A DNA stretch of 64,000 nt from Methanosarcina acetivorans C2A (GTDB lineage Archaea; Halobacteriota; Methanosarcinia; Methanosarcinales; Methanosarcinaceae): contig NC_003552.1 of assembly GCF_000007345.1 (NCBI RefSeq), positions 5,580,001 through 5,644,000 on the forward strand. Reading direction: 5' to 3'. The stretch's first letter is position 1; the number at the start of each line of letters is the position of its first letter. The notes beneath the pieces are model-generated. The model had not been told where the DNA came from. It worked only from the letters and a program-made list of their open reading frames with translations, and did not search any database. The translations under genes were made by a program, and so were the position numbers. Positions 1 to 10,442 of the stretch are shown here, one piece after another.

Positions 1-386
1 CCCACCACTGCAAGCGATTCCCTTGCAAGCTCCATATCTTCAGCACGGGGAGATGCAAACATGGAAAGATGAGGAGCCCGGCCCATCACCACAAAATCCA
101 GCACGGTAAAAGGAAAAACCACCTCGTTCTGCTGGGGCACATAACCTATATGCCGGGCAATTCCCTTTGCCCCGAGAGAAGTCGTATCCTCTCCCAGAAT
201 GCGAACAGACCCGGTAGAAGGTTTGAGAATCCCTGCAATGCATTTGATCAGTGTGGATTTTCCCGCCCCGTTGGGACCCAGGATGCACATAACCTCACCT
301 TTCTTTAAAGAGAAAGAAACGTTTTCAAAGACCAGCCCGTTTCCATAGGAAAAGGCAAGAGAGTTAACTTCCAGCATCAGTTCCAT
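1..386 (-). CDS. ABC transporter ATP-binding protein (partial, runs off left edge)
   Basis: Only the N-terminal ~128 codons are in the window. The translation begins MELMLEVNSLAFSYG and carries a Walker A motif, GPNGAGKST, followed by a Q-loop region (YVPQQNEVVFPF), which is the usual start of a FecE/BtuD-type ATPase that energises uptake of iron chelates or corrinoids. Two in-frame ATGs are possible: one at 386, overlapping the permease gene by 10 nt, and one at 377, overlapping its stop by 1 nt (TGATG). Either implies translational coupling to the permease. The signature motif and Walker B lie beyond the window. The substrate cannot be read from the ATPase. Confidence 0.9.
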   Translation of the reverse strand, partial: MELMLEVNSLAFSYGNGLVFENVSFSLKKGEVMCILGPNGAGKSTLIKCIAGILKPSTGSVRILGEDTTSLGAKGIARHIGYVPQQNEVVFPFTVLDFVVMGRAPHLSMFASPRAEDMELARESLAVV

Positions 387-1396
387 CCCATGCGCCCCCT
401 TCGAATCAGATATGCAAATAAAGGAGCACCTACAAGGGAAGTGAGGATCCCCAGGGGAATCTCCGTTGCGGCAATGGTCCTTGACAGGTCATCTACAAGC
501 AGCAGAAAAGAGGCACCGATAACCATGCTCATGGGCAGTAGACGGCTGTAGTTCGGACCGACTATCATCCTTGAGATATGAGGTACGACCAGCCCGACCC
601 AGCCAATAACACCGCTGATGCTGACCGCTGCTGAAGTTAAAAGGGTTGCACAAACAATGATAACCAGGCGCATTTTTTCCACGTTCATCCCGAGAGCTTT
701 AGCTTCCTCGTCTCCGAGGGACATGATATTGATCCTCCACCTGAGAAGGAACAACACCAGAGCCCCGACAAACATGGGCAACACTATGTAGAGCAGGTCC
801 CCGTACCTGACAGTAGCAAGGCTTCCCATGAGCCAGAATACTATTGCGGGAAGTTCGTCATAAGGGTCTGCCACATACTTTACCAGGGAGGTAAGCGCCG
901 TGAAAATAGAACTCACGATAATTCCGGAAAGCACAAAGACCAGAGTTCCTGTACCTTTGCTGGCTTTCCCCATACTTATGGCAAAAAACATGGCCAGGAG
1001 TCCGAAAGCAAAAGACATCAACTGTATAAGCAGGTAATTATCCCAGAGCAGTATTGCCAGGCATGCTCCGAAACCCGCACCTGCACCCACTCCCAGAATA
1101 TAGGGAGAGACAAGGGGATTCCTGAAGATCCCCTGAAAAGAAGCTCCGGCTGTGGAAAGTGCAGCCCCTACAAGCAAAGCTGCAAGTATCCTGGGCAGCC
1201 TTACATTGAACAGGACCGTGTGTTGAGTGGAAACCGAAGCAGGGGTGCCAAAAATGAGAGATGAAAAAGCTTTCATACTCTCGTCCACAACCGCCGAGAC
1301 AGGAGTCTGATATCTCCCCACGAAAAGGGAGCCTATTAATAAGACCAGGGGAAGAATGTACACCAGAGTGGTACGGGAATACCTGCATTCAGGCAT
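377..1396 (-). CDS. FecCD/BtuC-family ABC transporter permease
   Basis: A 339-aa polytopic membrane protein with about ten hydrophobic segments, the normal size for the FecCD family. Family hallmarks are the N-terminal VRLPRILAALLVGAALSTAG stretch (about residues 66-85), then FQGIFRNPLVSPYILG, and near the C-terminus VGLVVPHISRMIVGPNY and EIPLGILTSLVGAPLF. It forms the transmembrane channel of an importer for iron chelates, heme or cobalamin-type compounds. It overlaps the upstream radical SAM gene by 8 nt and the downstream ATPase gene, so it belongs to one operon. The substrate is not determined by sequence. Confidence 0.93.
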   Translation of the reverse strand: MPECRYSRTTLVYILPLVLLIGSLFVGRYQTPVSAVVDESMKAFSSLIFGTPASVSTQHTVLFNVRLPRILAALLVGAALSTAGASFQGIFRNPLVSPYILGVGAGAGFGACLAILLWDNYLLIQLMSFAFGLLAMFFAISMGKASKGTGTLVFVLSGIIVSSIFTALTSLVKYVADPYDELPAIVFWLMGSLATVRYGDLLYIVLPMFVGALVLFLLRWRINIMSLGDEEAKALGMNVEKMRLVIIVCATLLTSAAVSISGVIGWVGLVVPHISRMIVGPNYSRLLPMSMVIGASFLLLVDDLSRTIAATEIPLGILTSLVGAPLFAYLIRRGRMGWN

Positions 1397-3155
1397 GAGT
1401 GCACCTCAAAACATGCCAGGTCCCGGAAGTAGGCCTGTGAAAAGACCTGTTAGGTGTGGCTTTCCCATATGGCATGCCGTAAAACTGCCTGTAGAACTCA
1501 TCTGCTTCTTTTTCCAGGTCGATTCCTGAGTTTCCTGGATACAGTTTGTCTGCAATATACATGAGCCCCAGGATCCAGCGGGGGTTTCCGAAATCCCAGG
1601 ATGGAGGGACTTCATAGACCCGCTGCTGTTTTACAGCATCCGTCTCTATGCCATACTGTCGGCAGAGGGTATAGAATTCATCGAGGGGGCGGGAAAGGAA
1701 ACCGGAGATGAAAATTGTGTCCGGGTTATTTTCATTGATAAAAGAAGGAGAAACATTTATACCCGGTTTGCCTTCCTTTTGAAGCTGCTTATTGATGCTC
1801 AAGCCCCCGGAAAATGCCACAAGGTTGTTTTCCATTCTCCCGGCGTTCAGGGCAAAAAGAGGAGAGCCCATGCAGTAATACACCTTATGACCACTGTTTT
1901 CTGCTGCAAGGGACTTAACAAGCTCCAGGCGTGTATGGATAAAGGAAATAAGCTCTTCTCCTTTTTCCGGCATATTTGCCCTTTCCGCAATTAGCCTGAC
2001 AAAGTCAAGATAAGCGTAAGGCTGCTGGATCATATGGTGCACCTTCATAAGGGTCCCGGAATCGGAGATTTCTCTCCAGACATCTATTAACCTGGAATCG
2101 TCCAGTATTCCCAGACATGTAAGTACTCCATGGACCATCCCGAAAGCCCGGCTGATCCGATATCCGCCCATGAAACCTTCCTCATTGAAACGTTCAACGG
2201 CAGTTGTCCCTTTAACAGGCACAGTCTTCCCGCAATCACAGGAATAAGTTATCCAGGGCCTTACTGGTCTCGAACCCATGGGTCCGTAGAACTCCCGTTC
2301 TGCAAGGAGACTGCCGCATTCGGGACAGTAAGTATTCAATAGTTCCGTACCCGGAGAATTGAAAAGATAAACATAATCCACATACTTACGCAGATCAGCG
2401 CACAGGCTCTCCGCCTCTCCTACGGAGGGCTCAAGCTCAATAGGCGCATCCCCGAAGGGGATGAATCTCATGACCTGGACAGGAATGGTTGGAGAAATAT
2501 CGGATACAGCTTCTGCAACCTTTATCACATCGGCTTCATTTCCCCTTGAATAAACAACCGAAGTTTCAACATGCACTCCCATGTCAAAAAGCAGGGAAAT
2601 ATTGCGGAAAACGGGAGCTGATGAAGGGACTCCGCAGCTTATGTAACTTCTGTCAGAATAACCTTTGATTCCGACATTCATGAAATCCACAAGCTGCCCG
2701 AGCTTGTTCAAAGTCTCTTCTGTGAAATAGCAGTTTGTGGAACAGCCCACAAGCAAACCCTTTTCTTTTGCCTGCACTGCAAGGTCCCTGAAGAGATAAT
2801 AATTTGCAGCAGGCTCATTTAAGGTGGAAACCACACCCAGGCAATCCTGCTGCAGAGCTTTTTCCACGACCTGGGAGGGAGTTAAAGTGGTACTGGAAAG
2901 AGATTTTCCTGAAGCCAGCAGACGAGCCACGCACCCGGAACACTGGAAATTACAGCCCGTGCCGAAGACCTGGAGAAACTTACCTGAGGGATAATAATGA
3001 AGCAAGGGGATAGTTTCTATGGAGACTGGATATGCACCAAGGTATCCCATATCAGGGTCCTGGATAATGGTATCGCCGGTACAGACATAAGTCCTGCACC
3101 TGCCCCTGCTGTATTCATCGATTTCGCACCCGAACTCACACACATTGCACTGCAT
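1389..3155 (-). CDS. Radical SAM protein fused to a binding-protein-like C-terminal domain
   Basis: A 588-aa protein starting at an ATG preceded by AGGAGG. Domains seen in order: an N-terminal Cys cluster (Cys3, 6, 10, 20); a radical SAM core with CxxxCxxC at Cys68, 72 and 75; a zinc-ribbon-like section (CPEC at 277-280, CDC near 306-308); then about residues 335-560, which resemble the TroA/BtuF-type binding protein encoded at 3808-4920. Shared landmarks are the long helix after the first lobe (ELVKSLAAE), a VYYxxGxP strand, an NPDTIFISG strand, RVYEVPPSW, then GLMYIADKLYPG and EFYRQFYG. There is no signal peptide, so the binding-like domain should be cytoplasmic. The N-terminal part recalls the PflA/AmmeMemoRadiSam group. 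It sits inside an ABC-uptake operon, so it may chemically process or sense the imported compound (inference). The reaction is unknown. Confidence 0.8.
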   Translation of the reverse strand: MQCNVCEFGCEIDEYSRGRCRTYVCTGDTIIQDPDMGYLGAYPVSIETIPLLHYYPSGKFLQVFGTGCNFQCSGCVARLLASGKSLSSTTLTPSQVVEKALQQDCLGVVSTLNEPAANYYLFRDLAVQAKEKGLLVGCSTNCYFTEETLNKLGQLVDFMNVGIKGYSDRSYISCGVPSSAPVFRNISLLFDMGVHVETSVVYSRGNEADVIKVAEAVSDISPTIPVQVMRFIPFGDAPIELEPSVGEAESLCADLRKYVDYVYLFNSPGTELLNTYCPECGSLLAEREFYGPMGSRPVRPWITYSCDCGKTVPVKGTTAVERFNEEGFMGGYRISRAFGMVHGVLTCLGILDDSRLIDVWREISDSGTLMKVHHMIQQPYAYLDFVRLIAERANMPEKGEELISFIHTRLELVKSLAAENSGHKVYYCMGSPLFALNAGRMENNLVAFSGGLSINKQLQKEGKPGINVSPSFINENNPDTIFISGFLSRPLDEFYTLCRQYGIETDAVKQQRVYEVPPSWDFGNPRWILGLMYIADKLYPGNSGIDLEKEADEFYRQFYGMPYGKATPNRSFHRPTSGTWHVLRCTHA

Positions 3156-3181: not shown

Positions 3182-3805
3182 TTACTTTTCCTTGCTCAGG
3201 ACCACCCAAAAGCCAGAATCGTCCTTAACCACATGACAGGGGATTTCAGTCCGTTCCCCGGCTTCCCGTATAGCCCGAATCGTTTCCGGGCTGAGGCGCT
3301 ATTTAGAAGCAGTATGCCAGTCCGGGTCTATTTCAACCATTTTTTCAGAGATCTGGGCTTTCAACTCTTTTGTGCCAAAACCGCCCCCTATCCACGCCTG
3401 TCCACCCGGAGCAAGGACGCGGGAAATTTCCCTGAAAGCCACAGGCAGGTCTTTCCAGAAAAATACGGAGCCACGGCTTACTATGAGGACTGCGGAATTA
3501 TCCCTGAAGGGAAGCAGGTGGACATCAGCCTGCAAAGGAACAACCTTATCTGAAAGGAAGTGACGGTTAGCTTTGGCTTTTGAAAGCCTGCACATCTCCG
3601 TTGAAAAATCAACCCCATAGACCTGCATATCCGTGAGTTCCGCAACAGCGATCCCCAGGGATGCAATACCGCATCCCAGGTCCAGGCATATGCCCTGTTT
3701 TATCCCGCTTTCTTTGACGATGTGAGCTGCTATTACAGGGTAGATGGGAGCAAAGATGTGTTCGGCAATATAGGGAAAACCCGGAGATTTGCCCTTTTCA
3801 TCCAC
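3182..3805 (-). CDS. Class I SAM-dependent methyltransferase with an in-frame UAG (possible pyrrolysine protein)
   Basis: Translation from GTG at 3805 gives a methyltransferase with motif I LDLGCGIASLGIAVAEL, an acidic motif II (VYGVDFS) and the post-II strand EISRVLAPGGQAWIGGG. An in-frame TAG follows at codon 169 (3301-3299). The same frame then stays open for 38 codons to TAA at 3182-3184, reading SPETIRAIREAG and ending VVKDDSGFWVVLSKEK, which looks like a normal methyltransferase C-terminus. UAG is read as pyrrolysine in Methanosarcina, so the product is either a 207-aa Pyl-containing protein, a mixture, or a 168-aa truncated form. It lies 2 nt after the binding-protein gene and 26 nt before the radical SAM gene when the readthrough is counted, against 143 nt otherwise. 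The substrate is unknown. Confidence 0.8.
3299..3301 (-). other. In-frame UAG codon inside the methyltransferase reading frame
   Basis: The plus strand reads cta here, giving TAG on the coding strand between Lys168 and an Arg codon. Methanosarcina carries the pyl machinery (established knowledge; those genes are not in this window), so this codon may be decoded as pyrrolysine. It could equally be a simple nonsense change. The sequence alone cannot tell them apart. Confidence 0.85.
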
Positions 3806-3807
3806 GT

Positions 3808-4920
3808 TCAGGCCTCTGCTGCAGGGTTCAGTAGCGTATTCAGTTGTTCATCCGTAAGCTCATAGTGGAAGAATTCCAAGTAGAACTCACGGGTCAGCCC
3901 GGAGAGATCCATATCTGCAAAAAGATCCGGATATAGCATCTTTGCAGTCCAGGCAGTCCCTATAATAAGATGGGGGCCCTGTGGCCTGTCAATCCAGCAG
4001 AAGGGATTCTGAGGGGCAAGATACACCCGTTTGTTCCGGACAGCATCCACGCTTTCCCAGAGAGAGTCAGAATATACGGATGCGTAAAACTGCGGATTGG
4101 AGGTGATGATTATCTCAGGGTTCCAGTCCATGACCTGCTCTATTGAAACCTGGGTCATGCCGCTTCCCGGAGTTAGCGGACAGTCGGCAACATTGATACC
4201 CCCACAGATATCAATGACCTGGGAGTGCTGAGAACCGGAGGGATCGGTCATCAGGCCTTTCGGGCCTTCGGCATAGTAAACCCGTACCTTTTCATCTTCG
4301 GGAATATCTTTTACAGTGTTGTTGATCTCGTTGAGGATTGAACCGCGGAACTCAATCAGTTTTTCTGCCTGGGCTTCACAGTCAAGCAGCTTACCCACAT
4401 ATTCGATAGTGGGATCGGATTGTGTCACGAAGATAATAGAATCATCAACGGCAACCACCGGAATGCTGCCAAAACTTTCCTGCCTGCGTTCTATGGCTTC
4501 GTTGATTTGCCCGTCAGTGGTGTATCCTTCAATTACAATGTCAGGGTCCATGCTGATTATAGTTTCATAGTTCCCGGTCTGGGTCCCGAACCAGCCCCCT
4601 ATTACTGGCAGACTTGTGTAATTTTCATCCATAAAAGGTTGAGTAAAATTATTTTTGAAATTCCAGCCTGCAAGTTTGTCCGGTGCAAGCATATAAACGA
4701 GAATAGTAGAAGGAGGAGAAGTGGCTACTACCGAGGAGATCTCAGCCGGCACGGTTAGCTGCCTGTCCAGCATATCGGTGATCTGCACTTTATCCGAATT
4801 CTGGAGCACAGCGCTTGAGTTCGGAACAGCCTGCTGGCCCGTACTTTCCGTACATCCGCAGGAAGCAATAGCCAGAACCAGCAGAGAGAGTATTAACATT
4901 GTACCTATTTTTTCACGCAT
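3808..4920 (-). CDS. ABC transporter substrate-binding lipoprotein (TroA/BtuF/FepB type)
   Basis: About 370 aa. An ATG at 4971 is possible, but the ATG at 4920 is preferred because it gives a proper export signal: MREK, then a hydrophobic stretch ending ASCGCTEST, like a lipobox, followed by a Ser/Gln-rich linker. The mature part has the two-lobed clamp pattern: VVATSPPSTILVYMLAPDKL, then SMDPDIVIEG in lobe 1; a long connecting helix (AEKLIEFRGSILNEI); VYYAEGPKGLMTDPSGSQH, WNPEIIITSN and RVYLAPQNPFCWIDRP in lobe 2. It captures the ligand outside the membrane for the permease and ATPase encoded downstream. The CWIDRP segment resembles binding proteins for iron or tungstate/cobalamin-type ligands, but the ligand is not resolved. 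First gene of the operon. Confidence 0.9.
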   Translation of the reverse strand: MREKIGTMLILSLLVLAIASCGCTESTGQQAVPNSSAVLQNSDKVQITDMLDRQLTVPAEISSVVATSPPSTILVYMLAPDKLAGWNFKNNFTQPFMDENYTSLPVIGGWFGTQTGNYETIISMDPDIVIEGYTTDGQINEAIERRQESFGSIPVVAVDDSIIFVTQSDPTIEYVGKLLDCEAQAEKLIEFRGSILNEINNTVKDIPEDEKVRVYYAEGPKGLMTDPSGSQHSQVIDICGGINVADCPLTPGSGMTQVSIEQVMDWNPEIIITSNPQFYASVYSDSLWESVDAVRNKRVYLAPQNPFCWIDRPQGPHLIIGTAWTAKMLYPDLFADMDLSGLTREFYLEFFHYELTDEQLNTLLNPAAEA

Positions 4921-5397
4921 AGAAATCCCTACAGACTTTTGATGTTTTAATCGATATGTTCGGATAAACATAAAGATATAAAAGTATATTCAGTTGTTAA
5001 ATAGATATACAGTTACTGAGATTGGAAAACGCTAACGGGTCTGTTTTTTGGAAAACTTCTACGTTTTTACGGCTTACAGAGGGTTTTCAGCAAATAACCT
5101 CATTATCATTTTCCAGGGTATTCTCAGCGCAGCATATCAGGAAGACGGTAACCTATTTCCTAGTTATAAAATAAATAGATTTCTATTTCAAAACAATTCG
5201 AATTATTAAGAAAACATATCAAAATCCAGAAAAAAATAAAACTATATAGACTTCTTGTTACCGAATTTTCGGGACTCTAACCGGAGTGACAGGAAAAAAC
5301 GGTCCAATGCTTAAATAATGCTGAAAAAGCGATATGAAAACAGAAAAACACGGTACTGCACCGCATATTACCATTCCTTTAAATCGTCCGGCTTCAT
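4921..5397 (-). promoter_or_regulatory. Upstream region of the ABC operon (477 bp, no gene)
   Basis: AT-rich sequence without a convincing coding frame. On the minus strand, AT-rich hexamers at about 4965-4990 could act as a TATA element for the binding-protein gene. A stretch around 5195-5250 is almost pure A/T. No clear operator was identified. Confidence 0.3.
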
Positions 5398-8623: not shown

Positions 8624-8690
8624 TTTACTGAAAATTTGGTATTATATAGGAGACCAACTTTTCCTTATTCTGGTCTTCCATAAGAGACCA
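8603..8690. repeat. Three 20-bp near-palindromic repeats with exact 34-bp period
   Basis: Copies at 8603-8622 (TGGTCTTTTATAAGAGACCA), 8637-8656 (TGGTATTATATAGGAGACCA) and 8671-8690 (TGGTCTTCCATAAGAGACCA). Each is close to TGGTCTYTTATARGAGACCA, an imperfect inverted repeat. The spacers are 14 bp each and unrelated. They lie just upstream of, and touch, the truncated ATPase remnant. A partial fourth arm (GAGAGACC) occurs at about 8697-8704. The layout suggests binding sites for a dimeric protein or iterons. No function is shown. Confidence 0.8.
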
Positions 8691-8803
8691 TTATGAGAGA
8701 GACCTGCTGTTTCTCAGCTTAATTCGGTAAAAGAAGAGCAAAAAAATAAGAGCAAAAAACTTCATCCGAGCTACATAAATAGCTTATTCCCGTCTGTCCT
8801 GTC

Positions 8804-8821
8804 CCGTTCGCTTGCGAACGG
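8804..8821. other. Perfect 7-bp hairpin with CTTG loop
   Basis: CCGTTCG, loop CTTG, CGAACGG. It sits in the gap between the ATPase remnant and the RibD-like gene and is not followed by a T-run on either strand, so it is not a clear terminator. It could be an RNA hairpin in the leader of the RibD-like gene. Confidence 0.5.
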
Positions 8822-8910
8822 CCTGAACCATGAAACAACTGAAATGAAACAATAAATAAAAAGCAAAATCACATAAAATCAAGTAACAATCACTGAAAGG
8901 GGAAGGGGCA

Positions 8911-9507
8911 GTGAAAGAAAATAATCCCAGAATAAAACTCTACATCGCCTGCAGCCTCGACGGCTTCATCGCCCGAAAAGGCGGAAGCGTAGACTGGTTA
9001 ACCGAATACGAAAACAGTTCCGAAACCGACTACGGATATTCCGAATTTTACGCGTCGATCGGCACAGTCCTTATAGGCAGAAAGACCTATGAACAGGTCC
9101 TAGACTTCGGAGTATGGCCTTACGGGGAGAAGAAAACGTATGTTTTTACCAGACAAAAAGAACCCCTGCGCCGGGAAAAAAACGTAGAATTTGTTTCCGG
9201 AAACGTCGGGGAATTTGTGCGCCGGCTGAAGGAAAATACTGATGAGAATATCTGGCTCGTGGGCGGTTCACAGCTTATCAGGGTATTTCTCGAAGAAGAC
9301 CTTGTGCAGGATATGATTGTTTTCGTTGTTCCGGTTATTCTTGGGAGTGGGATTCCGCTTTTTGACCGGATTGGGAAGGAGGTCAGGCTCAGGATGATTG
9401 ACACGGAGAGGTATGAGAGTGGGCTGGTGAAATTGGAATATGAAATTGAAGGGCGACATAAGAAAATAGCAAACCATAAAAGGAAAGACATTCAAAAATT
9501 TGGATAA
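8911..9507 (+). CDS. RibD C-terminal / dihydrofolate reductase-like protein
   Basis: 198 aa starting at GTG, with GGGGAAGGGG just upstream. The N-terminal IKLYIACSLDGFIARKGGSV is the characteristic first strand and loop of the DHFR-like fold in the RibD_C family. TVLIGRKTYEQVLDFG, KTYVFTRQKE, IWLVGGSQLIRVFLEEDLVQD and VPVILGSGIPLFD follow in the expected order and bind NADPH in relatives. The protein is small and stand-alone (YwjB/YyaP type), so it is a probable NAD(P)H-dependent reductase of unknown substrate rather than a true riboflavin or folate enzyme. The Lys-rich end (about the last 20 residues) looks like an extension. It lies 23 nt before the Mrr gene. Confidence 0.85.
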   Translation: MKENNPRIKLYIACSLDGFIARKGGSVDWLTEYENSSETDYGYSEFYASIGTVLIGRKTYEQVLDFGVWPYGEKKTYVFTRQKEPLRREKNVEFVSGNVGEFVRRLKENTDENIWLVGGSQLIRVFLEEDLVQDMIVFVVPVILGSGIPLFDRIGKEVRLRMIDTERYESGLVKLEYEIEGRHKKIANHKRKDIQKFG

Positions 9508-9530
9508 GAAAATGACTTTTGAGTGGTTTG

Positions 9531-10442
9531 ATGGTAATTCCAGATTATCAATCCGTAATGCTCCCTCTGTTAAAGTATGCAGAAGACGGCAAAGAGCATC
9601 GAATCCGTGATGCAATTGAACAGTTAGCCGAAGAATTCAGACTGAGTGAGGAAGAAAGAAAAGAGCTACTGCCAAGCGGCCAGCAAGCTATTTTTAAGAA
9701 TAGAGTCGGATGGGCTAATACTTATCTGAAAAAGGCCGGACTGCTGGAATCCAGAAAAAAGGGATATTTTTCCATTACCCAGAGAGGAATGGATGTTCTT
9801 AGAGAAAAACCTCCTTCCATTGATGTTAATTTTTTGAAGCGGTATGAAGAGTTTAATGAATTCCGCAATCAAGGAAAACAGATAGAGACTATAGGCCCTA
9901 ACAAAATAGAACCTGAAAATTTAGACCCAAAAGAAACCCTCGAAATCGCATATCAGAAACTTCATAACGAGCTAGTCTCCGAGATTCTCTCCATTATAAA
10001 GAAATGTTCAGCCAGTTTCTTTGAATCACTGGTCGTAGATGTTCTTACAAAAATGGGCTATGGAGGTTCAAGAGCCGATGCCGGGAAAGCTGTTGGCAAA
10101 AGTCACGACGGCGGTATTGATGGCATTATAAAAGAAGACAGGCTCGGGCTTGATGTTATTTATATCCAGGCTAAGCGCTGGGAAGGTACAGTCACAAGGC
10201 CTGAAATTCAGAAGTTCGCCGGTGCTCTGATAGGAAGAAAAGCAAAGAAGGGAGTCTTCATAACGACCTCGAATTTTTCAAAAGAAGCTATTGAATATGC
10301 CGACTTTACAGGAAATATTGTCCTTATCGATGGGGAAATGCTTGCAAGGCTGATGATTGAATATGATGTTGGGGTTTCGAAGGTCAAATCATATGAAGTG
10401 AAGAAGACGGACACCGATTATTTTGAAGATGGAGTTATCTGA
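9531..10442 (+). CDS. mrr: Mrr-type restriction endonuclease
   Basis: About 303 aa from ATG 9531; a TTG at 9519 is an alternative start. Residues about 1-90 form a winged-helix Mrr N-terminal domain (YAEDGKEHRIRDAIEQLAEEF, then NRVGWANTYLKKAGLLESRK). The C-terminal catalytic domain has the PD-(D/E)xK pattern: FFESLVVDVLTKMGYGG, SHDGGIDGIIKED, YIQAKRW, then RPEIQKFAGAL and GVFITTSNFSKEA. These enzymes cut methylated or otherwise modified DNA. No modification methylase is nearby, which fits a solitary type IV system. It may be cotranscribed with the RibD-like gene. Confidence 0.9.
   Translation: MVIPDYQSVMLPLLKYAEDGKEHRIRDAIEQLAEEFRLSEEERKELLPSGQQAIFKNRVGWANTYLKKAGLLESRKKGYFSITQRGMDVLREKPPSIDVNFLKRYEEFNEFRNQGKQIETIGPNKIEPENLDPKETLEIAYQKLHNELVSEILSIIKKCSASFFESLVVDVLTKMGYGGSRADAGKAVGKSHDGGIDGIIKEDRLGLDVIYIQAKRWEGTVTRPEIQKFAGALIGRKAKKGVFITTSNFSKEAIEYADFTGNIVLIDGEMLARLMIEYDVGVSKVKSYEVKKTDTDYFEDGVI

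Follow-up and report, generated by a model that had tools for sequence, protein, structure and literature searches.

An in-frame UAG in a SAM-dependent methyltransferase gene of Methanosarcina acetivorans: a lysine-to-amber replacement probably tolerated through partial pyrrolysine decoding

Described genes with in-frame UAG and a probable earlier prediction

The methylamine methyltransferases MtmB, MtbB and MttB resemble the case considered here in that UAG lies inside a gene called a methyltransferase in a host possessing pyl genes. In these enzymes, however, pyrrolysine (Pyl) is catalytic, its position is conserved and the reaction is corrinoid-dependent; they are unrelated to the methyltransferase described below. 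A closer parallel is Thg1 (tRNA-His guanylyltransferase) of M. acetivorans, in which a non-essential, species-specific in-frame amber codon arose by neutral evolution (PMC2933860). Both genes carry UAG in one species with sense codons in the orthologues, and both are served by the same Pyl machinery. Published work on Thg1 reports that its codon is translated as Pyl and that the enzyme is active when Pyl is missing (PMC2933860), whereas the evidence on the methyltransferase comes from sequence.

In silico searches for such genes have been performed several times. Chaudhuri and Yeates (2005) list UAG read-through for thirteen methyltransferases of M. acetivorans, and entry 7 of their Table 2 names as homologue CAF30735.1, a "generic methyltransferase" of M. 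maripaludis (PMC1242214). Fujita and colleagues (PMC1914089) and Have and colleagues (PMC3639795) accepted only genes whose homologues or paralogues also carry an in-frame UAG, and their procedures would miss the present gene. Papers on Pyl across the M. acetivorans proteome were searched, and none of those covered reports peptides of this methyltransferase.

The closest solved relative of the methyltransferase is MMP1179 of Methanococcus maripaludis (PDB: 3dlc), a SAM-dependent methyltransferase about 40% identical over the full length including the part beyond the UAG; it differs in having no UAG. CAF30735.1 is taken here to be MMP1179, the protein of 3dlc. MMP1179 has one strong match in the M. 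acetivorans genome, the TAG-bearing methyltransferase gene (one TAG, E 1e-49); the next-best match (1e-11) is without a stop. Given this presumed identity and this sole strong match, entry 7 of the 2005 table is probably the gene described here, which would thus have been predicted already at that time.

Gene layout, operon and predicted fold

The window, i.e., the whole analysed stretch of 64,000 nucleotides (genome positions 5,580,001-5,644,000), carries the gene on its reverse strand. The read-through open reading frame (3182..3805) consists of 207 codons and a TAA, with the in-frame TAG as codon 169. It begins with a GTG start (3805-3803), and the pre-TAG part (3302..3805, 168 sense codons including the start) holds the SAM-binding motif DLGCG. 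The TAG occupies 3299..3301, the post-TAG tail of 38 sense codons 3185..3298, and the TAA terminator 3182..3184. The ATG of the next gene (3155) lies 143 nt past the TAG and 26 nt past the TAA. The first-pass annotation, made from the sequence without stating the strand, had described a TAG after codon 168, a further 38 codons ending at TAA, and a gap to the next gene of 143 nt without read-through or 26 nt with it; these positions and distances are reproduced exactly.

Separate initiation of the tail from a downstream start was considered and rejected. The only in-frame ATG, GTG or TTG codons within the tail are two GTG, both in its last 16 codons, and the tail could therefore hardly be made except via read-through.

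The operon neighbours described here are encoded on the same strand. The preceding gene (3808..4971) encodes an ABC-transporter substrate-binding protein (Peripla_BP_2). The next gene (1389..3155) encodes an AmmeMemoRadiSam-like radical SAM protein with a periplasmic-binding-protein-like C-terminal part, and is followed in the same operon by a FecCD/BtuC-type ABC permease (377..1396). The start of the radical SAM gene lies after the methyltransferase in relatives too, and the order of these two genes is kept. The operon places a radical SAM domain fused to a periplasmic-binding-protein-like part beside a FecCD-type importer and a methyltransferase.

The product belongs to the class I SAM methyltransferases. 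The Pfam profile Methyltransf_11 (PF08241) scores 72.2 bits against a curated cut-off of 21.2, and Pfam, NCBIfam and fold searches all point to this class with its Rossmann fold. Modelled with AlphaFold2 (mean pLDDT 93, pTM 0.90), the full-length protein of 207 residues matches 3dlc best among solved structures (TMq 0.92 over the full length); 3dlc is also the sole PDB sequence match at E < 1e-10. In the model, residue 169 is located at the end of helix 163-170, and the tail forms helix 173-184 and strands 190-195 and 198-204. The sheet of the Rossmann fold is complete in this model, its last two strands being provided only by the tail. The loss of a C-terminal strand-helix region without read-through, proposed from the sequence at the outset, agrees with the model, which puts the last helix and two strands beyond the TAG. 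A class I methyltransferase deprived of its last two strands should be severely impaired. A 168-residue fragment lacking them together with the last helix would probably be inactive.

Codon 169 and the tail in orthologues

The read-through protein was searched against 112 Methanosarcinaceae genomes, and 28 full-length orthologues were codon-aligned. Codon 169 encodes Lys (AAG/AAA) or Glu (GAA/GAG) in all 28 and is TAG in none. The three nearest orthologues have AAG at this site, so that a single A-to-T transversion of an ancestral Lys codon made the TAG. In each of the 28 the frame continues through the site into the same tail. Inspection of the codon in orthologues had been proposed in the first-pass annotation, with the remark that orthologues all ending at this position would favour true termination; every one continues, through a sense codon. 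The resemblance of the extension to a methyltransferase C-terminus, also claimed there, holds for the same reason.

The tail of the M. acetivorans gene contains no further stop and no indel. It is identical to that of the nearest relative at 31 of 38 residues, and its identity in most other orthologues is roughly half to three quarters. G198 and W200, the fixed residues of a G-x-W motif, never vary, and F199 and K205 are nearly invariant, including in bacterial homologues at 29-42% identity. The 38 codons past the TAG are, on this comparison, genuine ancestral coding sequence. The length of the open extension was rejected as evidence: in sampled sequence (0.8 Mb) at least 38 further codons precede the next TAA or TGA in 55 of 295 open reading frames that end in TAA and in 56 of 263 that end in TGA. 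About one in five such frames extends as far by chance, and the case for the tail is therefore its conservation, not its length.

Two further observations were made on the orthologues. That of relative G046 ends in TAG at the normal C-terminus, where read-through would add about 12 residues. That of relative G075 is split into two overlapping frames by a frameshift or an assembly error; a locus listed for Methanosarcina sp. ERenArc_MAG2 appears to be this same one.

The distribution of codons bears directly on a possible catalytic or binding role of Pyl169. The best-known functional Pyl enzymes are likewise called methyltransferases, and nothing else speaks for such a role. Unlike those corrinoid-dependent TIM barrels, the present one is a Rossmann-fold SAM enzyme, and Pfam, NCBIfam and fold searches did not place it in the corrinoid-dependent methylamine methyltransferase families. 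The position alternates between Lys and Glu, and TAG is conserved in none of the 28 orthologues. A function of Pyl itself is extremely improbable, given how the position varies and that a single species carries the TAG. The pattern is that of Thg1: a UAG limited to one species, at a variable position that relatives fill with sense codons. Because the relatives carry Lys or Glu, the methyltransferase is expected to work without Pyl at site 169. The first-pass annotation had left a choice between a further Pyl protein and a neutral UAG tolerated by the code. The neutral option is favoured over a further protein in which Pyl has a function, as relatives have Lys or Glu at this position, which falls at a variable helix end and is TAG in no other species.

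Selection on the tail was compared with that on the body of the protein. Along the branch leading to M. acetivorans, the body has 13 synonymous and 3 non-synonymous assignable changes and the tail 1 of each kind, these counts being minimum values. Had the tail drifted freely throughout this branch, some 12 changes should have accumulated (two or fewer have a Poisson P of about 0.0004), a test powerless for the period after the TAG arose if the TAG is very recent. Against the nearest relative, the pairwise dN/dS is 0.34 for the tail and only 0.13 for the body. A raised tail dN/dS is also seen among relatives that lack the TAG (0.44), and for this reason the tail is regarded as a faster-evolving part of the protein.

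Probable decoding of the UAG and its possible consequences

The genome encodes PylS (186,303-187,019; 423 bits) and, about 1 kb from it, tRNA-Pyl with the anticodon CUA. TAG is little used as a stop: in stretches totalling 0.8 Mb, after filtering out spurious antisense frames, 451 open reading frames of at least 200 aa ended in TAG (11), TAA (232) or TGA (208). Among 325 genes aligned with relative G083, the TAG of the methyltransferase is the sole internal one; other internal stops are near gene ends or in one doubtful frame. A survey frame split by TAG in both M. acetivorans and G083, presumably mtmB, served as a positive control. A second TAG-split frame occurs on the minus strand at about 5,460,693 (8670-10016 of sampled stretch L063), with 272 codons between the preceding stop and the TAG and 175 beyond it. 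The frame continues past the TAG as coherent protein sequence that ends in a membrane anchor at the C-terminus, and it probably corresponds to the CobN-like read-through listed for this species in PMC1242214.

In M. acetivorans, loss of pylT by deletion affects methylamine use only (PMC2933860). The organism reads an introduced reporter UAG as Pyl at 20-30% with no RNA element required, while UAG also acts as a stop in some genes, e.g., pylB (PMC2933860). Because of this ambiguity, the UAG of the methyltransferase could be a true stop, the 168-aa product being non-functional and the gene an incipient pseudogene. Such an outcome would agree with the predominance of termination in the reporter (PMC2933860), with the absence of the gene from many Methanosarcina genomes, which makes it dispensable in the genus, and with the higher pairwise dN/dS of the tail. 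Against it stand the lack of a second lesion in body or tail, the few changes of the tail on the M. acetivorans branch and the presence of the Pyl machinery. The 325 compared genes, moreover, contain no clear internal TAA or TGA lesion, the few such stops being those near gene ends or in the doubtful frame. True termination is accordingly considered unlikely, though it is the most serious of the alternatives.

The reading preferred here, with a probability of about 0.78 as judged from one reference genome, is that the Lys-to-UAG change is near-neutral, restricted to M. acetivorans and tolerated via partial decoding of UAG as Pyl. On this account, the A-to-T change from AAG to UAG at the variable helix end would be specific to the M. 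acetivorans lineage. A fraction of ribosomes would insert pyrrolysine, itself a lysine derivative, and produce the complete 207-residue enzyme, and the remaining ribosomes would terminate and release the 168-residue fragment. The UAG would persist because partial read-through yields enough enzyme, Pyl being unneeded for catalysis. The full-length methyltransferase is thus probably still made, at least in part. Read-through into a genuine C-terminus with the aid of the Pyl machinery, as originally suggested, is well supported at the sequence level by the 28 orthologues, PylS and tRNA-Pyl.

Partial suppression has a possible regulatory consequence. If Pyl supply rises during growth on methylamines, the amount of full-length methyltransferase could follow methylamine growth, and this dependence could now be under selection. 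The decoding of UAG as Pyl in Acetohalobium is tied to trimethylamine as growth substrate (PMC8211752). The UAG of the methyltransferase is present in a single species and so shows no mark of selection; the 120 nt around it fold no better than shuffles (z = -0.66), revealing no RNA structure of the PYLIS type; and no link of the operon, with its ABC importer and radical SAM protein, to methylamines was seen. That the UAG ties the level of the methyltransferase, and hence the work of the transporter and radical SAM operon, to Pyl supply and so to methylamine growth is improbable, and a selected switch of this kind is slightly less probable still. Such Pyl-dependent dosage, if true, would link an unrelated pathway to methylamine growth.

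On the preferred reading of a tolerated Lys-to-UAG change, the gene would be a natural example of how an organism decoding UAG absorbs a Lys-to-amber mutation that elsewhere would be lethal to the gene. The example is clean: a single substitution, sense codons in all relatives and a tail needed by the fold. An annotation of 207 codons instead of 168 is suggested. Known pyrrolysine chemistry is not extended by this UAG, which instead offers a testable case of how often ambiguous UAG decoding may hide nonsense mutations.
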